A stretch of DNA of 28,810 nucleotides, from positions 1-28,810 of the IMG/VR virus record IMGVR_UViG_3300046524_000428; one strand, given 5' to 3'. Source of the DNA: a virus. Numbering within the stretch: position 1 is the first letter of the stretch; each line of letters opens with the position of its first letter. The notes under the pieces were generated by a model. That model did no database searches, was not told the origin of the DNA, and was given only the letters and a program-made list of their open reading frames with translations. Of the stretch, positions 11,009 to 28,050 are shown in pieces. The translations under genes were made by a program, and so were the position numbers.

Positions 11009-12118
11009 ATGGATCAGCTGAATAACGTCACCCTGGGTGTGGGCGGGCACGACTACGGCGGCTGGAAAAGCGTCAGCATCGGCGCCGGCCTGGAACGCCA
11101 GGCGCGCGACTTTACCCTGGGCATCACCTGGCGCTGGCCGGGTGGCGGTGAAGTGCCGGTGCGGATTCGCCAGGGTGAGGCGGTGGAGGTGCGCATTGGC
11201 CAGGAGCTGCTGTTGACCGGCTATGTGTTCAGCACGCCGATTCGCTACGACAGCGAGTCGGTCACGCTGAGCATCACCGGGCGCTCGCGCACCGCGGATC
11301 TGGTCGATTGCGCCGCGATCAATCAGCCGGGGCAGTGGCGCGGGCAAAACGTGCAACAGATCATCGCCGCGATTGCCGGCGAATACGGGATCGCGGTGGT
11401 CAATGAGGCGGCGCTGACCCTGGGCGTGGACGACCACAGCATCGAGCCGGGCGAGACCGCGTTTGAAAGCATCGACCGGCTGTTGACCCTGTCGCGTTTG
11501 TTCAGCACCGACGACGGCCTCGGCCGCCTGGTGATTGCCCAGCCGGGCAGCGCCGGGCGCGCGGTCGATACCCTGGAGCTGGGCAAAAACCTGTTGTCGG
11601 GTGACACCAATCTGGATTTTTCCGGGGTGTTTTCCGAGTACGTCAGCAAGGGCCAGCGCAGCGGTAGCGATGACAGTTTTGGCGCGTCAGCCAGCGAGGT
11701 CGAGGGGCGGATCAGCGATGCGCGGGTTGACCGGCGGCGGGTCAAGGTCATCCAGCAATCCGGGCAGTTGACCACCAAGCTGGCCCGGGAGCGGGTCGAG
11801 TGGGAGCGGGCCAACGCGGTCGGCAAGGCCTTGACGGTCAACTACGTGGTGCAGGGCTGGCGGCAAAGCAACGGCGCGCTGTGGCGGCACAACATGCTGG
11901 TGCGGGTGATTGATCCGCTGATCGGCCTGGATCGCGACATGTTGATCAGTGAAATCAGCTACGAGCTGAGCGAACAGGGCACCACGGCCAAGATCAGCGT
12001 GGCCCCGCCCGAAGCCTTTCTGCCGGAGCCGAACGACGCCTACGAGAAGCGCAAGGCGAAGAAGGGCAAGAAGACCGACAACTTTGAATACCTCATTCCA
12101 GCGGACTACAAACCATGA
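11009..12118 (+). CDS. Mu gpP-like baseplate hub protein
   Basis: A 369-residue protein of the Mu gpP / T4 gp27-like hub family that connects tube and spike. It opens with a strand-rich domain (VTLGVGGHDYGGWKSVSI, RIRQGEAVEVRIGQELLLTGYV), then TITGRSRTADLVDC-type sequence (here SITGRSRTADLVDC) typical of the family. Next comes the FESIDRLLTLSRL helix, a VFSEYVSKGQRSGSD region, and late RVIDPLIGLDRDMLISE. The C-terminus is a lysine-rich tail. It starts two bases after the gpN-like stop and overlaps the spike gene by four bases, so the three are translationally coupled. It appears complete. Confidence 0.9.
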   Translation: MDQLNNVTLGVGGHDYGGWKSVSIGAGLERQARDFTLGITWRWPGGGEVPVRIRQGEAVEVRIGQELLLTGYVFSTPIRYDSESVTLSITGRSRTADLVDCAAINQPGQWRGQNVQQIIAAIAGEYGIAVVNEAALTLGVDDHSIEPGETAFESIDRLLTLSRLFSTDDGLGRLVIAQPGSAGRAVDTLELGKNLLSGDTNLDFSGVFSEYVSKGQRSGSDDSFGASASEVEGRISDARVDRRRVKVIQQSGQLTTKLARERVEWERANAVGKALTVNYVVQGWRQSNGALWRHNMLVRVIDPLIGLDRDMLISEISYELSEQGTTAKISVAPPEAFLPEPNDAYEKRKAKKGKKTDNFEYLIPADYKP

Positions 12119-12633
12119 AAAACGGCATCGCGAACATGCTGGCCCGCGGGGCGGTGGCCTTGGGCAATTCGGCCAGCAAGCTGCAAAGCCTGCAGCTGCG
12201 GCTGTTGGCCGGCGAGATCAAAGACAACATGGAGCACCTGGAGCCCTACGGTTTCACCGCCTGTCCCCAGGCGGGGGCCGAGGCTCTGGCGGCGTTCATC
12301 GGGGGCGACCGAAGCCACGGCGTGGTGATCGTGGTGGCGGACCGGCGCTTTCGCCTGCAGGGGCTGAAGCCGGGCGAGGTGTCCCTGTACACCGACGAAG
12401 GCGATTTTATTCATTTCAAGCGGGGTCGGGTGATCGAGATGGAAACCCTGACGCTCAAGGTCAAGGCGGCGACGGCGGTGGAATTCGACACGCCGGAGAT
12501 CCGCACCACCGGCCGGATCATCTCGCAGGGCGATCAGGTCGCCGCCGGGGTCAGCCAGATCGATCACCCGCACGGCGGTGTGCAACATGGCAACGATCAA
12601 AGCGGGCCGCCGCTACCCGGGGGTGGCGCATGA
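12115..12633 (+). CDS. Mu gp45-like baseplate spike protein
   Basis: A 172-residue protein of the Mu gp45 (baseplate assembly V) family, the trimeric membrane-piercing spike. Family features are the early LQLRLLAGEIKDNMEHLEPYGFTACPQAGAEALA block, HGVVIVVADRRFRL, LKPGEVSLYTDEGDFIHFKRG and the repeated beta-prism strands of the C-terminal half. The C-terminus has HPHGGV followed by a Gly/Pro-rich tail with a second His (VQHGND), consistent with an HxH-type metal site at the spike tip. Overlaps of four bases with both neighbours (ATGA) mark it as part of one operon. It is of full family length. Confidence 0.9.
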   Translation: MKNGIANMLARGAVALGNSASKLQSLQLRLLAGEIKDNMEHLEPYGFTACPQAGAEALAAFIGGDRSHGVVIVVADRRFRLQGLKPGEVSLYTDEGDFIHFKRGRVIEMETLTLKVKAATAVEFDTPEIRTTGRIISQGDQVAAGVSQIDHPHGGVQHGNDQSGPPLPGGGA

Positions 12634-13016
12634 GCCGTGAGGCGCTGTTGCGCCGCGCCGTGACCATCAGCCTGTTTACCTGGCGCCGCGCCGGCCCGGA
12701 TGACGCGGTGGGCGACAGCGACCGCAAGGGCTGGTGGGGCGATTGTGTACCGTCGGTGGCCGGCGACCAGATCGGCTCACGCCTGTGGCTGTTGTCGCGC
12801 CGGTCCTTGGTCGCGCAGACCCTGCAGGATGCCCAGGCCTACGCCGAGGAAGCGCTGGCCTGGCTGCTCGATGACCAGATTGTCACGGCCGTGAGCGTCA
12901 CGGTGGCGCGCCAGGGCAATGATCGAATGAATTTACGCGTCACGCTGACCGAGCAGAGCGGCGAAACGCTGGAACTGGATTTTGCAGACACCTGGGAGCT
13001 GATCAATGCCGTATGA
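12630..13016 (+). CDS. Mu gp46-like baseplate wedge protein
   Basis: A 128-residue protein starting at the ATG at 12630 that overlaps the gp45 stop. The GP46 family signature is present: DRKGWWGDCVPSVAGDQIGSRLWLLSR (about residues 31-57), followed by a helix and the alternating strands ending in DFADTWELINAV. This family corresponds to gp25-like wedge proteins that nucleate the sheath. An in-frame extension upstream to 12084 overlaps the gp45 gene and was not used. It overlaps the gp47 gene by 11 bases. Confidence 0.88.
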   Translation: MSREALLRRAVTISLFTWRRAGPDDAVGDSDRKGWWGDCVPSVAGDQIGSRLWLLSRRSLVAQTLQDAQAYAEEALAWLLDDQIVTAVSVTVARQGNDRMNLRVTLTEQSGETLELDFADTWELINAV

Positions 13017-14049
13017 GATTCCGACGCTGCCGGCGCTGATCCAGCGCACTGAGGCCGATTTTGAGCGCAACGCCCCGGATGCCTTGCGCCGCGCTGATGG
13101 CAAGGTGGCGGCGCGCGCGCTGAGCGGCACCGCCTTCGAGCTGTACGGTTATCAAGACTGGATTGCGCTCCAGTCCAATCCGGCGACCTGTGACGAAGCC
13201 ATGCTGTTGCGTTGGGCCGATTGGCGCCTAGAAGATGGCCGCACGCCGGCCGTCGCGGCCAAGGGCTGGGCGGCGGTGAACGGCTCCAGCGGCGCCTTGG
13301 TCGACGTTGATCAGGTTTACCAATTGCCGGACGGTCGCCGCTACCGCGTCACCGCGGCGGCCACCCTGGTGAACGGCGCGGCCAACCTGGCGTTAGAGGC
13401 CGAGGACGTCGGCGCCCTGGGCAATGTCGCGGCCGGTACCTTGACCGCGGTGACGCCGGTGCTGGGGGTCAACTCCAGCGCGGTGATTGGCTTCGATGGT
13501 CTGGTCGGCGGCACTGAGCAGGAAACGATTGAGGCGCTGCGCGCGCGGGTGCAGGCGGCGTTCAAAAACCCGAGCAAGGTCGGCAGCGGTGCGGATTTTG
13601 TCGAGTGGGCCTTGGAGGTGCCGGGCGTCACCCGCGCCTGGGCGCTGCCGCGCTGGATGGGGCCGGGCACCTTTGGCCTGGTGTTCGTGCGCGACGGTGA
13701 TCCCGACATTATCCCCACGGCGGAGCAGGTCGCCGAGGTTCAGGCCTACCTGGACAAAAAGCGCCCGGTGACCGCCGAGGTTTACGCCTTGGCCGCGGTG
13801 CCGCGGGTAATCAATTTCAGTATCCATCTGGTGCCGGACAGCACTGCCCTGCGCGCTGCGGTAGAGCAGGCGTTGCGCGGCCTGATCGTCGACGAGGGTG
13901 GCGCCGGAGAAACCCTGCGGCTGACCCATGTGCGCGCGGTGATCAGCAATACCCCGGGGGAAACCGACCACACCTTGAGTGTACCGGCGGTTGATGTGGC
14001 GATGACGGCCAGTCAGGTCGCCGTGCCGGGAGTGTTCACATGGCTTTAA
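13006..14049 (+). CDS. Baseplate J-like protein, Mu gp47
   Basis: A 347-residue baseplate wedge protein. It begins MPYEIPTLPALIQRTEADFE, typical of gp47/gpJ, continues with LYGYQDWIALQSNPATCDEAMLLRWADWR, the GxxVYQLPDGRRYRV domain, LEAEDVGALGNVAAGTLT, then GLVGGTEQETIEALRARV and EVPGVTRAWALPRW. It closes with the C-terminal domain around INFSIHLVPDS. Baseplate J-like proteins form the arms that link the hub to the fibres. It overlaps gp46 and gp48 by 11 and 10 bases and is complete. Confidence 0.92.
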   Translation: MPYEIPTLPALIQRTEADFERNAPDALRRADGKVAARALSGTAFELYGYQDWIALQSNPATCDEAMLLRWADWRLEDGRTPAVAAKGWAAVNGSSGALVDVDQVYQLPDGRRYRVTAAATLVNGAANLALEAEDVGALGNVAAGTLTAVTPVLGVNSSAVIGFDGLVGGTEQETIEALRARVQAAFKNPSKVGSGADFVEWALEVPGVTRAWALPRWMGPGTFGLVFVRDGDPDIIPTAEQVAEVQAYLDKKRPVTAEVYALAAVPRVINFSIHLVPDSTALRAAVEQALRGLIVDEGGAGETLRLTHVRAVISNTPGETDHTLSVPAVDVAMTASQVAVPGVFTWL

Positions 14050-14684
14050 CCGAGGCGGATTACCTGCAGCAGCTGCGCCAGTTGCTACCGCCGGGGCCGG
14101 CGTTTGATCTGGAGTTACAACCGGACTGGGCGCAGCTGGTGGCGGCTCTGGTGCCGGAGCTGGCCCGGGTCGACGGCAACGGCGAGGCGCTGTTGCTGGA
14201 GTTGAACCCGGCCACGGCCACGGTGCTGCTGCCGCGCTGGGAAGGCTACTTGGGCTTGCCGGATGTGTGCACGGTGCCCGGCTCACAAACCCTGGAAGAA
14301 CGCCGCCAGGCGGTGATCGACAGGCTGACCGCGACCGGGGCGCCGCAGCTGAGTTACTACCGCAAGCTCGGCACGCAGGTCGGCCTCGCCGTCGAGATTG
14401 AGGAATTTCGCCCGGCCCGGGTGGGCCAGGTCAGCGTCGGCGATTTCTTGTATGGCGCGGACTGTTCATGGAGCTGGGTCGCGGCGGTGCCAGTGGCGGC
14501 GTTCGGCACCGAGGCCGCCGCGAGCCTGGATTGTCGACTGCAACGGGACGCGCCGGAATACACCGAGGTGGTCTTGGGTTTTGGTCAGGAGGTGGTGGCC
14601 GCGATTGCCCTGCAGGTGGATCAACAGTTTAACGCCATTCACTACGTGGCCCCGGCCGCGCTGGCCGGTTTCGAGGATTTATAA
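14040..14684 (+). CDS. Mu gp48-like tail protein (YmfQ/DUF2313 family)
   Basis: A 214-residue protein with the family opening YLQQLRQLLPPGPAFD, then LARVDGNGEALLLELNPATATVLLPRWEGYLGLPDVC, TLEERRQAVIDRL, QLSYYRKLGTQVG and a WVAAVP segment in the second half. Proteins of this family lie between gp47 and the tail fibres and help attach the fibre to the baseplate. It overlaps gp47 by 10 bases and ends one base before the fibre start. Both positional and sequence evidence agree. Confidence 0.88.
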   Translation: MALTEADYLQQLRQLLPPGPAFDLELQPDWAQLVAALVPELARVDGNGEALLLELNPATATVLLPRWEGYLGLPDVCTVPGSQTLEERRQAVIDRLTATGAPQLSYYRKLGTQVGLAVEIEEFRPARVGQVSVGDFLYGADCSWSWVAAVPVAAFGTEAAASLDCRLQRDAPEYTEVVLGFGQEVVAAIALQVDQQFNAIHYVAPAALAGFEDL

Positions 14685-14685
14685 C

Positions 14686-15591
14686 ATGCAGAGAATTTCC
14701 AGCTGGACCGAACTGGTCACGGCCCTCGGCCTCTTTCGTTACGGCAGCGTAACGGCCGGCGTCCCCCCCACCCCCGTCAAAGCCGAGTGGCTGAACATGG
14801 TCCAGGAGGAATTGGCGCATGTCATCCTGGCCTACCTGCCGGCCCTAGACAAGGACGACAACACGCAGCTGCTGAAGGCCATTCAGAAGTTCGGTTTGGC
14901 CTATGCCGTGAAAGCCACCACCTTGGCCGGCTACGGCATTCTCGATGCCTACACCAAAGCGCAGACGGACACGATGGTGTCGGCCAAGGCCAATTGGGGC
15001 ATCACCCTGGCAGCGTATGGCATCGGCGATGCCTACACCAAAACCGCCACCGACACGCTGCTGGCGGGTAAAGCCAACAACGCCACCACGCTGGGTGGCT
15101 ACGGCATCAGCGATGCCTACATCAAGACGGAGATCGATTGGCTGCTGTCGCAGAAAGCCAACAACGCCATCACCTTGGGCGGCTACGGCATCGGCGATGC
15201 CTACACCAAAACCGCCACCGACGCGCTGCTGGCGGGTAAAGCCAACAACGCCACCACGCTGGGTGGCTACGGCATCAATGATGCCTATACCATGGCGACG
15301 ATTGATGCGGCCTTGGCGGGTCTTTGGAACGATGGTAATGCCACGCCCAAAGCCATCCTTGCCCAAGCCTCGGCCGCGGTCGGTGGGGTCGGCACCTATG
15401 CGCTGATGACCAACCGCAGCGGCGGGGCGCTCAGTGCTGGTCAGGTCGTCGCTGGCGGCAGTCTGACTTACGCCAACACCGAAGACGTCGTGCAAAACGG
15501 CGGCGCGGCGTCGGGCACCTGGCGTTGCATGGGGTACGCGGCGGCGAACCCGAACGACCAAGGCACCACCCTTTTCTTAAGGATCTCTTAA
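14686..15591 (+). CDS. Tail fibre protein with 28-residue repeats
   Basis: A 301-residue fibre; the ATG at 14686 lies one base after the gp48 stop with GAGGA nine bases upstream. Residues 1-75 hold a conserved N-terminal attachment part (LVTALGLFRYGSV, KAEWLNMVQEELAHVI). Residues 76-212 are five units of about 28 residues built on KANNATTLGGYGIxDAYTKTATD, the Phage_fiber_2-type repeat. The C-terminal part (about 213-301) is a compact Gly/Ala-rich head ending in WRCMGYAAANPNDQGTTLFLRI, which probably trimerises or binds the receptor. It is short for a fibre. Loss or gain of repeat units by recombination is likely. A chaperone-like gene follows directly. Confidence 0.85.
   Translation: MQRISSWTELVTALGLFRYGSVTAGVPPTPVKAEWLNMVQEELAHVILAYLPALDKDDNTQLLKAIQKFGLAYAVKATTLAGYGILDAYTKAQTDTMVSAKANWGITLAAYGIGDAYTKTATDTLLAGKANNATTLGGYGISDAYIKTEIDWLLSQKANNAITLGGYGIGDAYTKTATDALLAGKANNATTLGGYGINDAYTMATIDAALAGLWNDGNATPKAILAQASAAVGGVGTYALMTNRSGGALSAGQVVAGGSLTYANTEDVVQNGGAASGTWRCMGYAAANPNDQGTTLFLRIS
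14911..15321 (+). repeat. Five in-frame 84-bp repeats in the tail fibre gene
   Basis: The first unit is three codons short; the other four are exactly 28 codons. Units 2 and 4 and units 3 and 5 are most alike at the DNA level (for example GCGGGTAAAGCCAACAACGC recurs). This suggests duplication of a two-unit block. The encoded units share GGYGIxDAY. Confidence 0.85.
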
Positions 15592-20172: not shown

Positions 20173-21483
20173 CTACACGAGTTGTGGAGCAATATCTTTG
20201 AGAGCGTCACGACATGCGGCCACATGATAGTTGCCTTCTGAAGGTGGTTGGGTTTTCAAAAATTCCACATGGCTGTCAAGTGTAGCGGCATCCATTGATG
20301 CGTATTTTCTCCTGATTTCATCAGAGACATAAAATCCGCTGCTTGGCGGCCTGATCAGGAATCTTGATGTCAGCTCTATCAATACATGGTCAGGGCGTTC
20401 GGCATTCACAGCGTTCCAATCTATATCAGCTCCTGAAAAGATTCTTATTACTTTGGAAAAAGAATAAGAAAGGCAGTTTGCTAGGGATGTGGAGAAAGAA
20501 TCGCCGAATATCATTAGGCTTTTTTTATTAACAGCCTCAGGGTTCTCGTATATAACGATATTTCCTCTGACGGATATGCCATTGTCAAATATTTTGTGTC
20601 TTGTAAACTTATCGTGATCACTAACAATAAGAGCATTTTCTGTTTTCATAGGGACGAATTTAGATCCCAAATCACCAGAGAACTGCTTCAATACATACTC
20701 AACGTTAGGTGGCGTGGCAACAAATCCAGCCCTGAGACAAAAAGCGGATGCAGCTACGGAAGCACCGTAGTCATTCCAGTGCGAATCGGTTTTAAAATAG
20801 GTGAATTCTCTATCTTTGGTGAGTTCTGTCACCGGATTCAGCAGATTGGCCTTGTTAGAAAAATGTAGCGTAAACTGCTCTATCGGGGTAATGGCGCCTT
20901 TCTTCTCGGGGTAGTACTCCGGATAGATATATTCTTTTGCTGGCGCTAGCAGGAATGTAAATGGTGTACGGTTTCGCTCAGACCAAGAACTTAGGATATC
21001 AAAATACCTATCCCATTGCTCTATTCCTTCTTTTGGAATCAGGTTTTTTCCCAGGAACTGAGCTGCGCTGTCATTGGTGTCGTTAGAAAGAAATAAATGC
21101 CCTTGCTTTCCTACTAGTGCCGCTGCTTTTGACTTTCCTATATTGGCCTGAGCTAGCCAGTATATTTTTCCGCCGTAGCTGGCTCCAATTTTAAATTCGG
21201 TGTTGTAGTCAAGTGGGTATTTAGCGCCGCACTGCAATGGCGCGCCAGGAAATGCCTTTTGCACGTCAGGGCGCTCTCTGTTCGATGTGAAACTAGACTT
21301 TGGCATATGGCTAAATACAAAGCTTACAGGTGTCCCGTCGAGACTGTAGATCCATCCTGAGAAGCCGATATAAATGCTATCAGCAGCACACTGAGAGCCC
21401 GATTTTGGTAAGTCTATAGAGTACTTTATAATGCTCTGTTCGACTTCCAACTTTGTTATGGTTAGGCTCTGTTTTACTTCCAT
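20173..21483 (-). CDS. AlgX/AlgJ-type SGNH acetyltransferase (probable lysogenic-conversion gene)
   Basis: A 436-residue protein on the - strand. An ATG at 21549 would add 22 basic residues but has no ribosome binding site, so 21483 (GGAA upstream) is preferred. Residues 1-115 are an unassigned beta-rich domain (SGWIYSLDG). The second part matches the AlgX/AlgJ SGNH-like domain: GKQGHLFLSND at 125-134, FLLAPAKEYIYPEYYP, then FKTD233SH235WNDYG and MIFGDS329FS. These supply the Asp-His and the serine of the catalytic triad that O-acetylates alginate in AlgX. No signal peptide or membrane segment is obvious, so the site of action is uncertain. The gene is clearly AT-richer than the phage genes around it. 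It probably modifies a surface polysaccharide. Confidence 0.75.
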   Translation of the reverse strand: MEVKQSLTITKLEVEQSIIKYSIDLPKSGSQCAADSIYIGFSGWIYSLDGTPVSFVFSHMPKSSFTSNRERPDVQKAFPGAPLQCGAKYPLDYNTEFKIGASYGGKIYWLAQANIGKSKAAALVGKQGHLFLSNDTNDSAAQFLGKNLIPKEGIEQWDRYFDILSSWSERNRTPFTFLLAPAKEYIYPEYYPEKKGAITPIEQFTLHFSNKANLLNPVTELTKDREFTYFKTDSHWNDYGASVAASAFCLRAGFVATPPNVEYVLKQFSGDLGSKFVPMKTENALIVSDHDKFTRHKIFDNGISVRGNIVIYENPEAVNKKSLMIFGDSFSTSLANCLSYSFSKVIRIFSGADIDWNAVNAERPDHVLIELTSRFLIRPPSSGFYVSDEIRRKYASMDAATLDSHVEFLKTQPPSEGNYHVAACRDALKDIAPQLV

Positions 21484-21658
21484 TTTTTGCGTTCCACTTC
21501 TGATTATTAAACTAGCGACTGTCGCTTTGCTGGATTTTCTTGCGCGCATTCTATCCGAATTTTCGTAGTTCTAGTCAAAGACGATTGCCCGCATATCCTG
21601 ATTGCAATTGACGTCATAAGGCCGATAAGCCTGTCAAAAAACTGTCAACGCAGAACAG

Positions 21659-22358: not shown

Positions 22359-22589
22359 ATGGAAGGTGTAGAGCTGAGTCCAAAGATTGAACGCGAAGCC
22401 GACAAGCTTCTTGCTCAGATCGCTCAGGCGGATTCGATGATTGTTGCGGCGAAAGCCGGCGCACGCGCTGAGGGGTTTGTGCTTGGCTTGGAATCGGCCC
22501 GCGCGTTGACTGAAGCGACCATTGATCAACTCTACGTTATCTTCGATTCCGCGACTGAAGAGCGGCTGAGATCGCTGGCTGCAACTTAG
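22359..22589 (+). CDS. Small phage protein of unknown function after the endolysin
   Basis: A 76-residue, mostly helical, soluble protein; AAAGGTGG precedes the ATG at 22359. It is rich in Ala, Glu and Leu (KIEREADKLLAQIAQAD, GARAEGFVLGLESARALTEA). It has no membrane segment or signal sequence, so it is not an obvious spanin. It lies 26 bases after the endolysin stop, where Pseudomonas phages often carry short lysis-associated genes. Its stop overlaps the stop of the SRAP gene that comes from the other strand. Confidence 0.6.
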   Translation: MEGVELSPKIEREADKLLAQIAQADSMIVAAKAGARAEGFVLGLESARALTEATIDQLYVIFDSATEERLRSLAAT

Positions 22590-23281
22590 AACAAGCCGTC
22601 TTCCTCGGCTGGCTTAATTAAGTCGGGCCCCTGATTGCGCACGTTGCCGATCGAACGGTCCACCTTGAACCACTCAAACGCCTCAGTTGGCTCGCCCTGG
22701 TGCATTACCATCTGTTCGGCGCGCTCCTTTGGCGTGGCCGGGTCGAGCCATTCGCGGGCCAGTTCAGGCGATAGCGTCACTGGGCGGCGGTCATGGATGT
22801 CCACCATGCCGCCGGCGCTGTCGGCGGTGATGATGACAAAGCCGTCGTGTTCGCTAGGCTCATGCTCGACATTCGGGTATTGGCCGATCGCTGCGCACAA
22901 TATCGGCGCCCGATCTCGGCGGCGGATCAGGTACGGCTGCTTCTTCGTTCCTCCTTCATCCACCCATTCAAACCAGTTGTTGATGGCGATGATTGCCCGG
23001 TGCGGCCAGATTGCCCGAAAGAAGGGGCCGTGGGCGACTTTCTCTACCCTGGCATTGATCGGTGCCGCGCGGTCTTTGGCCCAATGCGGGCGCCATCCCC
23101 AGCGCACCATGTCGGCGTGCAGGTATTCACCTTCCTGATGAAAAATCGCGAGCTGCGTTGTCGGAGCTGCGTTGTACCGCTCGAAAGGCCGGTCACCGGT
23201 GCTGTTAACCAGAGGGTTGGGCATGCTGAGTGCAGCTACGAAATCGTGGATGCCGTCGTATTGGGAAAGTCGTCCGCACAT
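22586..23281 (-). CDS. SRAP-domain abasic-site protein (YedK/HMCES-like)
   Basis: A 231-residue protein on the - strand starting at 23281 with MCGR; after removal of Met, Cys2 becomes the reactive N-terminus. The active-site set of the SOS-response-associated peptidase family is complete: Cys2, Asn37 in YNAAP, Asn76 in INARVE, Glu105 in WFEW and His163 in DIHDRRPV. These proteins form a covalent thiazolidine link with abasic sites in single-stranded DNA and so shield them. The gene begins two bases after the stop of the coiled-coil gene and is probably in one operon with it behind a LexA box. The frame is open further upstream, but that part overlaps the coiled-coil gene. A decayed second copy lies at 24709. 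Confidence 0.93.
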   Translation of the reverse strand: MCGRLSQYDGIHDFVAALSMPNPLVNSTGDRPFERYNAAPTTQLAIFHQEGEYLHADMVRWGWRPHWAKDRAAPINARVEKVAHGPFFRAIWPHRAIIAINNWFEWVDEGGTKKQPYLIRRRDRAPILCAAIGQYPNVEHEPSEHDGFVIITADSAGGMVDIHDRRPVTLSPELAREWLDPATPKERAEQMVMHQGEPTEAFEWFKVDRSIGNVRNQGPDLIKPAEEDGLF

Positions 23282-23283
23282 GT

Positions 23284-23604
23284 TCAGTCCCTCTGATTGC
23301 CCGTTTGCAACTCGCGAATGATCCTTTCTTTTTGATCCAGGACCAGCGTCAAGCTTTGGATCTGGGAAAGCTGGTCGGTGGTTTCCGCCTCCAGGTTCGC
23401 CATCCATGCCCGCTTCTTTTGGAGTTCGGCTGACAGTTGGTCGTTCATTTCGACAAGGGTGGAAATGTTTTCCTTCGCCGCATGCAGTTGCCGCCTCAGC
23501 TCTTCGATGTCCTCCTCGAGCATATGGGCGTAATGCTTGACGGTTTCCAGCCTGGTCGGACTGCCGAGCCAATCGCTGGTGTCTTCAATTTCGTAGGGGT
23601 CCAC
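23284..23604 (-). CDS. Coiled-coil protein cotranscribed with SRAP gene
   Basis: A 106-residue protein with a GTG start at 23604. The first 20 residues are acidic (MDPYEIEDTSDWLG); residues about 20-100 are an unbroken heptad-type coiled coil (VKHYAHMLEEDIEELRRQL, LSAELQKKRAWMANLEAE). It has no known catalytic motif. It ends two bases before the SRAP start, and its start lies about 20-35 bases from the LexA box, so it is the first gene of a damage-induced operon. A structural or partner role for the SRAP protein is possible but only inferred. Confidence 0.75.
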   Translation of the reverse strand: MDPYEIEDTSDWLGSPTRLETVKHYAHMLEEDIEELRRQLHAAKENISTLVEMNDQLSAELQKKRAWMANLEAETTDQLSQIQSLTLVLDQKERIIRELQTGNQRD

Positions 23605-23622
23605 GGTCGCGCCTTACTGATA

Positions 23623-23638
23623 CTGTTTGGATATACAG
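23623..23638. promoter_or_regulatory. LexA (SOS) box
   Basis: CTGTTTGGATATACAG fits the gammaproteobacterial LexA consensus CTG-N10-CAG exactly, with an AT-rich core and flanking TA on both sides. It lies 19 bases upstream of the GTG of the coiled-coil gene (- strand) and upstream of a possible + strand gene, so it could control both directions. Confidence 0.85.
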
Positions 23639-23685
23639 TAATCGAGGGCGGACGCGATGGCGAATGCTGGCGACGGAATGCAACG

Positions 23686-23889
23686 GTGTGCTTACCGGCG
23701 CCCTACGATGCAGGTCCGCTGTCCTGTAGCCGTCATCAGCTATCGGCATCGGCGGCGTGGTTCATGGAGGAGCGCGCACGACTTGACACAGCGCATGCTC
23801 AACGAATTTTCGCGATTACCGACGCCGGTGACAAGGGACTGATGGCACTGGCTGCCTGTCGAGCTTACGTATACGAGATCTCGCACTGA
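23686..23889 (+). CDS. Possible small SOS-linked protein, 67 residues
   Basis: A + strand frame divergent from the LexA-controlled operon. From the GTG at 23686 it encodes VCLPAPYDAGPLSCSRHQLS, then AAWFMEERARLDTAHAQRIFAITDAGDKGLMALAACRAYVYEI. The amino acid make-up looks like a real protein, with a helical middle. The ribosome binding site is poor and the start uncertain; an ATG at 23764 is the next choice, and the frame is open further upstream. If real, it could share the LexA box. Confidence 0.4.
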   Translation: MCLPAPYDAGPLSCSRHQLSASAAWFMEERARLDTAHAQRIFAITDAGDKGLMALAACRAYVYEISH

Positions 23890-23948
23890 GATTCGGAGTC
23901 GACTATGATTTAATAAACCTTCATTGAACTGTATCAATAGGTCAGCAA

Positions 23949-24662
23949 ATGGAAACATATTTTATTCAAGGAATAGTATTGCCCGAAAGGTCGCCAATAA
24001 CGTACGAGTTTTCTTCAAAATTTCAACATGTTGCGACAGGGCAGAGATGTTCGGCAAAAGTTTCAATATTGCTAAATCAAGTTGCAGTTTGGTTAGATAC
24101 TGAGGAGGAGATGTCTTTCGCTGATCTAAAGAATCTTTCGAATTACATGGTTCTTAATTTGCTGTACGTTTTTTCATTTCTGAATGGGTATACATACGAT
24201 TTTCAAGTGACTCGTGCTATAAATAGGGAGCGTAACGCGGATGTAGTTTTCGGAATTGATCATCCAGTTATTGCAGCAAGAAGGCCTGTGATTGATTACC
24301 CGGTCGTTGTCAAAAAAGTACAAGCTCATTTGCTTGGTGATCAAGGGGTATTTATACATAGATGCCTAGGGGATCTATCAGCAGCTATGCGTTTTATAGA
24401 AGACTCAGCGTTCTACTGCTACCGTGCCATAGAGTCACTACGAAAACATTGCGCCGCCATTCATGGTATTACTGATGCCTCGAAAACTGTACAGTGGGAA
24501 AAGTTTCGAGAGGTCTCTGGGTTCTCTAAAGAGAAGATAGGCTGGATAGCCGAAGCTTCTAAGGAGTCGCGCCATGGAGGTACATCGATCCTTAGTATTG
24601 AGGAAAATGAAAAGCTTCTCAATGAAACGTGGGATATTGTCGATTCATATCTAAAGGTTTGA
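23949..24662 (+). CDS. AT-rich accessory protein of unknown function, 237 residues
   Basis: I do not recognise this gene with certainty. It is much AT-richer than the phage genes. The N-terminal half is strand-rich (SILLNQVAVWLDTEEE); a short hydrophobic segment (NYMVLNLLYVFSFLNG) may be a core helix rather than a membrane span. The C-terminal half is helical, with SAFYCYRAIESLRKHCAA, VQWEKFREVSGF and KESRHGG. The YRAIE ... RHG pattern recalls HEPN-like C-terminal domains of accessory proteins, which is a weak hint at an RNase or defence role. It lies between the SOS region and an SRAP pseudogene and converges with the nuclease-ATPase gene. The ribosome binding site is weak (AGG, eight bases upstream). 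Confidence 0.65.
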   Translation: METYFIQGIVLPERSPITYEFSSKFQHVATGQRCSAKVSILLNQVAVWLDTEEEMSFADLKNLSNYMVLNLLYVFSFLNGYTYDFQVTRAINRERNADVVFGIDHPVIAARRPVIDYPVVVKKVQAHLLGDQGVFIHRCLGDLSAAMRFIEDSAFYCYRAIESLRKHCAAIHGITDASKTVQWEKFREVSGFSKEKIGWIAEASKESRHGGTSILSIEENEKLLNETWDIVDSYLKV

Positions 24663-24708
24663 ATCAGCAAGTTATCCAGGTTTTTAAGAATTGGCTCTAT
24701 AAATATGG

Positions 24709-24914
24709 GACCATAATGTCGCGCATTCCCCACAGTGCGATCTACTTGGAACCACTCGAACGCTTCGGTCGTTACGCCTTGGTGCATTACCATCTATTCG
24801 GCGCGCTCCTTTGACGTGGCTGGATGATCCATTCTGGAGCCAGTTCTGACGACAGCGTCACTAGTCGGCGGTCGTGTCCACCATCCCGCCGAGGCTGTCG
24901 GCGGTGATGATTAG
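24709..24914 (-). pseudogene. Decayed fragment of a second SRAP gene
   Basis: On the - strand this stretch matches the C-terminal half of the SRAP gene at 22620-22830. The shared block TGGTGCATTACCATCT and the GGCGCGCTCCTTT segment are nearly identical, and the later HDRRPV region is recognisable at the DNA level. Small deletions (for example near 24822 and 24868) break the frame, and the N-terminal half with Cys2 is missing. The stretch 24663-24951 holds no other gene. It suggests that an SRAP locus once stood here, or that a second copy was cut by insertion of the AT-rich genes. Confidence 0.8.
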
Positions 24915-24951
24915 ACCCTAATTGGAGGCGCTACTATTCTGGTTTTGCTTC

Positions 24952-27426
24952 TTAGACAGGCCTGACAAAAGCTTCAGGTAGAGGACCGTAGTTTCGCTCG
25001 GCTGACTCGAGTGCGTTTCTCATGTTTAGCACCAGAGCTGGATAAATTTCTTTTAGTACATTGACGTGCCATTCTTTGGGTAAAACTCTTCTAACAGCTT
25101 CGTCACACAATACAGAGTATAAATCAGTCATGTAAGCGTGAAATACTTTTACTCGCTCTATGCGATAATATACGCGCATTGTTCTGCTGTTGTAGCTATT
25201 AGAGATTTGTCTGCCAAGTGTGTTTAGTTGTTCCCATACTTTTTCGTCGGCAACGAATGTATCCATCATCAAGTTCTCTACGAACATGAAGTTTGCTATC
25301 AGATCTCTAATAATGTATCCCCCCAGTCGACTCGGATAATAACTCGATTTGAAGTCGGCTGGGCCGTGGCCTCCGGTATAACAAAATCGGAAGCGACATA
25401 GGTCGTTCAAAACTTTTAATGCTACTTCATCTCCAATTCCGACTGAGCGTAAAAATTTGTTGATTTCTATTCCGTCTAAATATTGAAAGGATGCGTCTGA
25501 AGAGTATTGTACTAGCGCTGATAATACAAATAGTCGAGTGAGTTGAAGATTGGTGCGCTCCAGATGAGAGTCGTACGGGTTTCCAATAGGAGAAAAAGCT
25601 TCGTTGTATACCGATTGATTACCCAGCAGGATGGCTCTTAGCGCTTCATGTTTAGGTAGTGTGTATTTTCCGCCAGATTTATGAGTGTTATATGCTTTTC
25701 CGGGGTTTGAGTATCCGTGTTCAATAAATTCGCGTGTCATTCTTAATGCGTTCCGTACATCTCCCGAAGCTAGTACTTCCAGAAGGCTGCCTACATCTGT
25801 TCCGAGTACAGAGCTCTGTATCAACTCAATAAGCACTGCTAGGTCGGTTACCTGAACTTTCATACCATTTTCAGAGATGAAGTCGCCGGATTGACCGGAT
25901 ATTAGGTTAGTAGCAAGGAAGAATCGCTTCGATAGAACTGCCTCGATCTTTGGAGGCTCTATTAGAATCGGATCGAAATCAAATGCATTGAAGGCTGGTG
26001 AGTTGCGGTGTTCTACGTAAGTAGAGCTACGCAGAGCGATAACAAGATTTAAATTGAGTTTTGACGAAAATGCAACAGCTTCAGTGAAAATACTTGACTG
26101 GAGCTTTTCCTCCAGTTGGTCGATGTTATCGATAACTAAAAAAACTGGGGCTTGGGAGGTGGAGTAGCTGAGTAGCTTGTCGACGTATGGTTTGATGTTG
26201 TCGTAATCTTCTGTTAGCTTTTTTGTTATTAATTCATCAAATTTATCTTTGTTCTGGGCAATCAGAAATGCAGGTCCCTTCCTAATTGCTTGAATTTCTT
26301 TATTATAAGCTTTTTCGATGCATAGATGATAGTCTGAAAAGTAGTCATCATCGATGAGGTACTCTTTTATGCCTTCATAAATATAGTCAACTGGAAGTTT
26401 GTCGTTTGTGTACTTTAAAAAGTTTATTGCTATCCAGTGTGGATAGGCCTGTTTTGGCTTTTTCTCAAAGACCGATGCAGCTGTTACATTGCGGGTGTAA
26501 TGCAGGAACGTGGTTTTCCCAGCGCCGACACTACCGAGTATGACTATTGCCAGCGGTTTTGATTTGCTTTGAAGGTTTCGAATCCGTTCTTTTAAGAAGT
26601 TTGCGTCCTTCCTTTGCATAGGTCGGACAGGTTGAGAGCTAAATAAATGCTGGCTTTTCGATATGTGCATATTAATCCGCCTGTCAAATTTAATTTTCTC
26701 AGGTGAGTTAACATAGCATCTTTCGAATAGTTCCGGATCCATCTCGATGATGGTATCCGAGAATGAAGTTGTGATTGCGGTCTCGATAAGTGGATAAATC
26801 GAGTTTCTTGATTCTGATCTAGGGCTTTGGAAGAAGTTCCTAAGGCGCCGACCTTCTACCTGGTCTTCGCTGTAGCCTAAAAGCATGTTTTCTAGGCTTG
26901 AGTTAACGACAGCGTTTCTTGAAAGTAAGTCTGTGAATTCTGAATAATCGCTAACTAGAATTGATTCGAGGGAGTTGAAGACCAGCGCGTAGGAGTTTTG
27001 AAAAGTGACTTGGTCAGTTCGATTTGCTGGAAATACCACCCACTGATTACCATTGGTCACTACCGCAAACTGTATACCCAGCTTGCGACAATAATCACGC
27101 GCTTGTATTACAGCTTCCTCAAGGTCACCGAAAATATTGGTTTTAGTTAGCTTCAAACGCCTGTCTTTAGCTTGTGTTTTAAAAACGACGCCGACCTTTT
27201 TGGCTTCTAGAATAAATGCAGTGCTTGCTGTTCGTATTACATAGTCGGCATACGTCGTACTGCCGTCCTCGGAAACGCGCTCTTCGACTTGTACATCGTT
27301 ATGAGTCCATCCGAGCACCTCGAATAGTACCTTATCGATGAGCTTGAGCCGTGTCTCAGCTTCGTTCACGTTCTCAAAATCAATTTTTTTACCGACCGCA
27401 AGCAGTTCGGATATTGCATTTGGCAT
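24952..27426 (-). CDS. PD-(D/E)XK nuclease-like / P-loop ATPase protein, candidate defence gene
   Basis: An 824-residue - strand protein; the ATG at 27426 with GAGGGA upstream is preferred to a TTG at 27444. Residues 20-160 look like the N-terminal domain of type I restriction subunit R: NEAETR at 21-26, Asp61 in YAD, Glu74-x-Lys76 in ILEAKK, and the QARDYCRKLG helix at 108-117. A P-loop follows (GSVGAGKT, residues 298-305), with Walker B VFLVIDNIDQ (Asp433, Asp436) and a LVIALRSS sensor-like strand. A winged-helix-like region (around residue 640, EINKFLRSVG) and a helical C-terminal part come after it. No methylase or specificity gene is near, so it is not a classical type I system. The architecture resembles STAND/AAA-type abortive defence proteins. 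The gene is AT-rich and probably acquired by transfer. Confidence 0.78.
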   Translation of the reverse strand: MPNAISELLAVGKKIDFENVNEAETRLKLIDKVLFEVLGWTHNDVQVEERVSEDGSTTYADYVIRTASTAFILEAKKVGVVFKTQAKDRRLKLTKTNIFGDLEEAVIQARDYCRKLGIQFAVVTNGNQWVVFPANRTDQVTFQNSYALVFNSLESILVSDYSEFTDLLSRNAVVNSSLENMLLGYSEDQVEGRRLRNFFQSPRSESRNSIYPLIETAITTSFSDTIIEMDPELFERCYVNSPEKIKFDRRINMHISKSQHLFSSQPVRPMQRKDANFLKERIRNLQSKSKPLAIVILGSVGAGKTTFLHYTRNVTAASVFEKKPKQAYPHWIAINFLKYTNDKLPVDYIYEGIKEYLIDDDYFSDYHLCIEKAYNKEIQAIRKGPAFLIAQNKDKFDELITKKLTEDYDNIKPYVDKLLSYSTSQAPVFLVIDNIDQLEEKLQSSIFTEAVAFSSKLNLNLVIALRSSTYVEHRNSPAFNAFDFDPILIEPPKIEAVLSKRFFLATNLISGQSGDFISENGMKVQVTDLAVLIELIQSSVLGTDVGSLLEVLASGDVRNALRMTREFIEHGYSNPGKAYNTHKSGGKYTLPKHEALRAILLGNQSVYNEAFSPIGNPYDSHLERTNLQLTRLFVLSALVQYSSDASFQYLDGIEINKFLRSVGIGDEVALKVLNDLCRFRFCYTGGHGPADFKSSYYPSRLGGYIIRDLIANFMFVENLMMDTFVADEKVWEQLNTLGRQISNSYNSRTMRVYYRIERVKVFHAYMTDLYSVLCDEAVRRVLPKEWHVNVLKEIYPALVLNMRNALESAERNYGPLPEAFVRPV

Positions 27427-27741
27427 AGATCCCTCTACTATCAAGACTTCACTGAAGAAAAACCAAACCTACTGAGGATGCAAGGATGATGAGAGCTTAG
27501 CGGCTTTGATTGTTGCTTCAGATGAGCCCCGCCGATGCGCGTCAAAGGCGGGGTCTTACCTCCACCCATAGAAAACCTCACGGGTAGCCATTCGCCATCA
27601 CCTCTCATGCCATTAGCATACCGGGTTGCTGTGATGAGATGCAAAACCCACCATACCCTTGCTTATGCATTGCAAATACGAGCTGCTCCAGACTGTGACC
27701 GCCACTGTTGGAGGGGTCGTAGAAGCTCTGATCGTGCTTAC
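27427..27741. other. Gap of about 300 bases without a confident gene
   Basis: Several short frames are open, but none has a good start and a protein-like make-up. The only clear structure is a hairpin, CCCCGCC (27527-27533) with GGCGGGG (27547-27553), which has a weak T-rich stretch on the + strand (TCTTA). The promoter of the nuclease-ATPase gene must lie at about 27440-27520; I see no convincing hexamers. Confidence 0.5.
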
Positions 27742-27951
27742 TTACTCCGGCGTCATCAGCACTGCGAGCGTCAGCTTGATGAACTCTTCATTTTTATCGA
27801 TGGTTTCCAAGGCGCCGCGGACGTTATCGGCAACGTCGGCCGCGCCGTGTTGTTCGACCCAATTGGACAGTTCCATGATGGCGGCTTCCAGGGCGAGCTG
27901 GTTTTCGTTGATCTTGTAGAGCAGGGAAGGGAGCAGGTCAGAGTTTGGCAT
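27742..27951 (-). CDS. Short conserved hypothetical protein, 69 residues
   Basis: A - strand gene starting with ATG at 27951 behind a strong GGAGG six to seven bases upstream. The product (MPNSDLLPSLLYKINENQLAL ... WVEQHG ... ETIDKNEEFIKLTLAVL) is fully helical and acidic, with no membrane segment or motif. Small genes of this type are common near Pseudomonas prophage ends; the function is unknown. It lies 100 bases from the integrase-site-like repeats and 210 bases from attR, so it is the last gene of the element or of its cargo. Confidence 0.7.
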   Translation of the reverse strand: MPNSDLLPSLLYKINENQLALEAAIMELSNWVEQHGAADVADNVRGALETIDKNEEFIKLTLAVLMTPE

Positions 27952-28050
27952 CGCGAATCCTCCGGGGAGATTTCAGCGTAGCATTGGGAAATAGTGCATG
28001 GAGGAGGTTTGTGTTCGTCGGCAGGACGCCGGGGAGGGCGCCAAAAAGGC

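Follow-up and report, generated by a model that had tools for sequence, protein, structure and literature searches.

The RdrA protein of RADAR, an AAA+ ATPase of the ORC/Cdc6 type, acts in defence and assembles into heptamers (PMC9994260). It has no HsdR nuclease and works with a deaminase, RdrB. Two reviews based on comparative genomics describe ORC/Cdc6 ATPases that occur together with restriction endonucleases (REases) and winged helices in conflict systems of several genes; no single chain beginning with an HsdR nuclease was found in either paper (PMC10853773, PMC12839542). BrxC and the other ORC/Cdc6 ATPases of BREX and Dnd/Ssp-type systems, which likewise pair the AAA+ with a winged helix, belong to multi-gene systems. 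In Avs/AVAST proteins an N-terminal nuclease effector, an NTPase and a long C-terminal repeat (TPR-like) sensor lie in one chain, and many of the KAP P-loop NTPases (PifA, QatA, Tmn) have transmembrane helices within the P-loop domain. HsdR of type I restriction has an N-terminal nuclease with D, ExK and QxxxY motifs, an SF2 translocase and the companions HsdM and HsdS.

The window, by which we mean the whole 28,810-nucleotide stretch of viral DNA that was analysed, encodes a protein of 824 residues, P0001, with features of each of these. It has the ORC/Cdc6-type AAA+ of RdrA and BrxC and, like BrxC, a winged helix, but carries its own N-terminal HsdR nuclease in the same polypeptide and has no partner gene. 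The nuclease is of the HsdR family, but is joined to an AAA+ rather than an SF2 motor (no helicase family was found in Pfam) and is without HsdM or HsdS. The domain order is that of Avs, but with an ORC-type lid, an invariant sensor-2 arginine and a C-terminal part of only about 250 residues. P0001 scores above the KAP_NTPase gathering threshold, but has no transmembrane segment (highest 19-residue hydropathy 1.38) and has the nuclease fused in the same chain. The gene and its parts are as follows.

24952 to 27426, minus strand: P0001 coding sequence, 824 aa, intact (ATG at 27426, stop at 24952-24954)
26872 to 27426, minus strand: HsdR-type PD-(D/E)XK nuclease, residues 1-185 (from Pfam, PDB 3h1t, conservation and model)
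25717 to 26613, minus strand: AAA+ ATPase core and lid, residues 272-570 (from Pfam KAP_NTPase, VIA-align and invariant columns)
24955 to 25716, minus strand: winged helix (about residues 620-708) followed by a helical bundle, residues 571-824 (from AlphaFold); putative DNA-binding or sensing part

Domains of P0001

A ribosome-binding-like site, GAGGG, is found at 27431-27435, just upstream of the ATG. An initial annotation made from the sequence did not give the strand, but its catalytic residues D61, E74, K76 and K304 are at exactly these positions in the translation. The closest relative, L021, is 82% identical to P0001 with a dN of 0.12; synonymous sites are saturated between the two, so dN alone is quoted and no dN/dS ratio. 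Conservation was assessed in an alignment of 82 relatives with 17-82% identity.

Pfam HSDR_N_2 matched residues 25-136 with 26.9 bits (gathering cut-off 25). A PDB sequence search with P0001 alone as the query gave no match, while a profile of the 82 relatives found HsdR (3h1t) at the N-terminus with E=2.4e-7. The nuclease residues are E22, D61, E74-x-K76 and Q108-xxx-Y112, and D61, E74 and K76 are kept in all 79 relatives in which they could be assessed, in agreement with the PD-(D/E)XK domain originally proposed. The QxxxY motif of HsdR nucleases had been missed; of 80 assessable relatives, 65 have Q at position 108 and the other 15 have E, while Y112 is present in all of them. Residues E22, D61, Y62, E74, K76, Y112 and R466 are each kept in at least 90% of the aligned relatives.

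A nuclease of this type with a QxxxY motif might suggest type IV-like restriction, in which a single modification-dependent enzyme would read a base modification on incoming DNA with its winged helix or helical part and the AAA+ would position or move the nuclease. Some homologue records are indeed named 'Predicted type IV restriction endonuclease', but this name stems from the nuclease domain alone. No modified-base reader domain was recognisable in Pfam, and the motor fold is kin to ORC, RdrA and TnsC rather than to McrB, although McrB is not excluded. We regard type IV-like restriction as unlikely.

The ATPase has a Walker A motif (G298-x2-G301-x-G303-K304), a Walker B motif (D433-N434-x-D436), R466, R501 and a sensor-2-like GDVR558. 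Both Walker motifs and R558 are kept in 82 of 82 relatives, and the invariant positions are G298, G301, G303, K304, F307, D433, N434, D436, Q443, R501, R558 and N616. Pfam KAP_NTPase matched residues 276-448 with 23.5 bits (gathering cut-off 20), a cut-off reached by few of the relatives tested. With the nuclease residues and the Walker motifs kept so strictly, the match is no chance hit. The complete Walker A/B ATPase of the initial annotation is thus well supported, and the winged-helix-like region and helical C-terminus that it described are both present in the AlphaFold model.

This model, built on the 82-row alignment, covers full-length P0001 with a pLDDT of 88.1 and a pTM of 0.83. The nuclease (1-185) is followed by a linker (186-270), the AAA+ (272-490), a lid (494-570), the winged helix and a helical end reaching residue 813. 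VIA-align of the ATPase-to-winged-helix part gave ORC1, ORC4 and Cdc6 (Z 13-14.5), RdrA (Z 13.6, rmsd 5.1, 320 residues over model positions 217-781), TnsC (Z 12.5), CED-4 (Z 12) and BrxC (Z 11.3), with RdrA having the broadest coverage among the low-rmsd matches. Foldseek placed Cdc6, Apaf-1, ORC, CED-4, RdrA and TnsC in a similar range. As these matches are close to tied, the safe statement from the model is that the ATPase appears to be an ORC/Cdc6-like AAA+ and to share a wider group with KAP, STAND, TnsC, RdrA and BrxC.

Comparison of a predicted structure with Avs, KAP and other P-loop families had been proposed at the outset, together with a STAND-type layout. The layout holds only loosely, in so far as the ATPase belongs to the wider group that contains STAND; the ATPase itself is ORC/Cdc6-like and the KAP profile is passed. 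In a STAND or Avs-type sensor the C-terminal part would bind a phage protein, for example terminase or portal, and so bring about oligomerisation and non-specific DNA cleavage. Such a sensor would fit the order of N-terminal nuclease, NTPase and C-terminal domain, and Apaf-1 and CED-4 were matched by Foldseek with E values of 7e-6 to 5e-4, alongside matches to ORC/Cdc6 and RdrA that are equally good or better. R558, however, is invariant. The C-terminal part consists of a winged helix and helices, with no repeat array in the AlphaFold model and no repeat family in Pfam where Avs and NLR proteins have a long repeat sensor, and no Avs model of PADLOC 2.0.0 matched P0001 at E <= 1. A sensor of this kind is distinctly unlikely.

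Modelled alone, the C-terminal part gave a pLDDT of 95 and a pTM of 0.90. The winged helix has weak matches (Z 6-7) to MarR, MukF and JetA-type proteins. No clear relative of the helical bundle was found by Foldseek or VIA-align, which does not in itself show a new fold. Some distant relatives carry an extra C-terminal S1 or cold-shock domain, suggesting that this end of the protein is in contact with nucleic acid; for P0001 itself, the chances that the C-terminal part contacts DNA seem to us evenly balanced. Two such relatives on plasmids, L017 (1827-4754, Acinetobacter baumannii) and L019 (5170-7851, Desulfocapsa), are annotated 'type I restriction endonuclease'.

Searches for a name gave little. 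PADLOC returned partial nuclease matches only (DrmMI, type IIG) and NCBIfam nothing above cut-off. In PHROGs P0001 matched phrog_14719 (522 bits over residues 4-775), the same family as catalogued in phages and without an assigned function. GiPD474, a single-gene defence ATPase from a prophage, is ParA-like and unrelated to P0001 (PMC12724215). The literature searched yielded ORC/Cdc6-REase and KAP themes (PMC10853773, PMC12839542), but not this architecture under a system name. DefensePredictor describes 13 PD-(D/E)XK and 7 P-loop systems validated in E. coli, and these might include a relative of P0001 (PMC13092281). The initial view that the protein belongs to no named system therefore agrees with PADLOC, PHROGs and the literature covered.

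The cargo zone of the prophage

The window, which comes from an IMG/VR virus record, is a Pseudomonas-type prophage. Its left edge carries the last part of an integrase gene; tail genes, a lysin gene and a cargo zone come next, then an attachment-like tRNA 3' end and finally host-like sequence. Three features of the right-hand part are needed here.

23684 to 27745, no strand assigned: AT-rich cargo block of about 4 kb, missing from the related prophages L118 and L121 (occupied against empty site)
24912 to 27743, no strand assigned: 2.8 kb segment with P0001 as its sole gene, cutting off an older SRAP gene; the module as acquired, from comparison with L218
28179 to 28210, plus strand: presumed attR core, the 3' end of a tRNA gene, present in at least 120 stretches of viral contigs

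The initial annotation had placed the gene in AT-rich cargo beside an attachment site. The GC content of the P0001 gene is 0.42 and that of the block about 23684-27745 is 0.43-0.46; the phage body has 0.63, and the zone immediately preceding the block 0.59. The tRNA 3' end lies 753 bp from the start of P0001, and homology to prophage L118 stops just past it. In L118 and L121 the counterparts of 23292-23702 and 27744-27988 are joined directly, with about 10 bp between them. Prophage L218 shares 23846-24911 and 27744-27983 and has at this site a counterpart of the ORF at 23949, then an SRAP (SOS response-associated peptidase) gene and another ORF. In the window the SRAP homology ends at 24911-24914, where the P0001 segment begins. 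A further prophage, L122, has different cargo again at the same site.

The empty sites in L118 and L121, together with the SRAP gene that is broken off at the P0001 segment but not in L218, suggest that P0001 arrived by itself. Judged from these alignments, it entered in a segment with no other gene, at a zone between the lysin gene and the attachment site that was variable already, and the description of P0001 as mobile cargo is borne out both by the block and by the segment within it. The reading of P0001 as a phage core gene was dropped because of the empty sites in related prophages.

A third possibility is a Tn7-like transposition ATPase with its nuclease, that is, a TnsC-like and a TnsA-like part serving a mobile element rather than immunity. 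The TnsC fold match (Z 12.5) would agree with this, and TnsA of Tn7 is a PD-(D/E)XK nuclease too. The P0001 nuclease, however, is in the HsdR family; no inverted repeats were found flanking the P0001 segment, and the segment contains no transposase, including any TnsB-like gene. This function is extremely unlikely.

The only other intact gene of the cargo block, ORF 23949-24662 (plus strand, 237 aa, AT-rich), has a counterpart in L218 (6455-7168), at the same site and 91% identical, and no Pfam or PADLOC match; by eye, its C-terminal part looks helical and is perhaps HEPN-like. No RdrB deaminase partner was found. Nor was there any HsdM, HsdS or other restriction-modification partner in the inserted block, as judged by reading the ORFs of the window and scanning ten proteins, eight of them from the window; the absence of such a partner had been noted at the outset.

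An intact SRAP gene is present at 22586-23572 (minus strand), and the fragment cut by the P0001 segment is a frameshifted remnant of a second one at 24692-24914 (minus strand). SRAP genes recur in the cargo zone of the related prophages L117, L119, L120, L122 and L218. SRAP was considered as a functional partner of P0001 and rejected: across the other loci there is one match, 7 kb away in L012, and one annotated gene near L016, and the SRAP genes here were taken as passenger history. Elsewhere in the prophage, an AT-rich gene for an AlgX-like SGNH acetyltransferase (20173-21549, minus strand) precedes the lysin gene and is a possible surface-modifying lysogenic conversion gene, and a tail-fibre-like ORF has four tandem 84-nt repeats at 14911-15330.

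Relatives and their neighbours

Relatives were gathered from viral contigs, from genomes at one per species, from plasmids and from E. coli. In E. coli, homologues without any partner gene occur in the Rac prophage of 8 out of 5,426 genomes. The same stand-alone architecture was found in a P2-like remnant of Klebsiella aerogenes, on conjugative plasmids and on an IncFIB plasmid of K. pneumoniae whose phage-type genes led us to regard it as a phage-plasmid. Chromosomal homologues are present in Pseudomonadota, Bacteroidota, Bacillota, Acidobacteriota, Planctomycetota and others. In two samples, each of which includes the reference genome, single copies were found in 8 of 199 genomes (P. daroniae genus) and 4 of 398 (phylum). 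The neighbours on both sides vary among the Rac, P2-like remnant, phage-plasmid, plasmid and chromosomal loci. On the sequences compared, this patchy spread is the pattern of accessory defence cargo and not of a housekeeping ATPase.

These data also bear on whether P0001 serves the prophage's own biology, in replication, recombination, packaging or host take-over. Its location in a prophage and the replication role of ORC/Cdc6-like AAA+ proteins would be in keeping with such a gene. Closely related prophages do without it, however, homologues are found in unrelated prophages, plasmids and chromosomes, and a search of 50,697 phage records gave no match with P0001 or with two distant members as the query. 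A role of this kind is very unlikely.

The three nearest ORFs on each side of the gene at genome loci matched many PADLOC families (91 in 131 ORFs and 233 in 142 ORFs). In a control, 142 ORFs taken from 17 arbitrary stretches gave 11 such families; being small, unmatched for taxon or accessory status and compared through redundant family counts, this control makes the direction of the difference clear but not its size. The flanking matches include Hachiman HamB, Gabija GajA and GajB, PARIS AriA, SoFic, OLD, type I and type IV restriction and DRT reverse transcriptases, some of which are group II intron maturases.

According to PADLOC there is a SoFic gene in the neighbourhood of L021, the closest relative, which also has a NERD-type nuclease gene upstream as read from the sequence. 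At L046 (4251-7726) two genes that look like SIR2 and HerA, a known type of defence pair, lie directly upstream of the homologue; the second protein was read by eye, and the Pfam matches for that set include SIR2_2.

Split copies, with a frameshift or stop, were seen at 10 of 114 loci (L010 at 11757-14202, L005, L078, L029, L055, L062, L066, L073, L079 and L092). These copies, about a tenth of the loci, may reflect decay, the cost of carrying the gene or draft errors.

Proposed function of P0001

The patchy distribution, the association with mobile elements, the defence-gene neighbours and the strict conservation of both active sites argue for a role in defence or against mobile genetic elements, which we consider likely. 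The fold kinship to RdrA of RADAR and BrxC of BREX was also counted in favour of this. Nuclease and ATPase are never lost separately among the relatives, which suggests that the two activities are coupled, and there are fairly good grounds for seeing P0001 as an ATP-gated nuclease. Taken as a whole, the reading we favour on balance is that P0001 is a one-protein anti-phage (or anti-mobile-element) factor of a Pseudomonas-type prophage that acts as an ATP-gated nuclease. The initial annotation had called it an undescribed defence protein. The stand-alone nuclease-ATPase fusion, its mobility and its lack of a name all hold, and the defence role is made plausible by indirect evidence. The single-gene family, unnamed and widely spread, is probably anti-phage.

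In such a factor the nuclease would be kept inactive in the resting state. During infection the winged helix and C-terminal part would touch DNA or a phage product, and several protomers would then assemble in an ATP-dependent manner, perhaps as a ring on DNA as in ORC, TnsC and RdrA. Assembly would bring the nuclease domains together and so switch on cleavage, the target being phage DNA, or all DNA with arrest of the cell. Direct cleavage of phage DNA and suicide (abortive infection) cannot be told apart from the sequence.

A bolder proposal, which we hold to be doubtful, is an unnamed and widespread kind of immunity that needs one protein only: a ring of the origin-recognition AAA+ type would form on invading DNA and bring an HsdR-type nuclease to it. 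Self would be distinguished from non-self by the structure or state of the DNA (ends, replication forks, absent host proteins), with no part for methylation, guide RNAs or phage proteins. A self-contained nuclease-ATPase of one gene, present in many phyla, would give defence surveys a frequent element that has no name in the annotation libraries searched here. It is also carried by prophages, phage-plasmids and conjugative plasmids of clinical Enterobacteriaceae. With switch, nuclease and putative sensor in one chain of 824 residues and a confident model, P0001 offers a clean test case for methylase-free control of a restriction-type nuclease.

Members of the family may have different purposes in different clades. 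In the tree, 16 viral contigs (L088-L112) form a separate clade of relatives of about 885 aa, drawn from viral contigs alone; of two members that were scanned, one (L100) has an S1 domain at its C-terminus.
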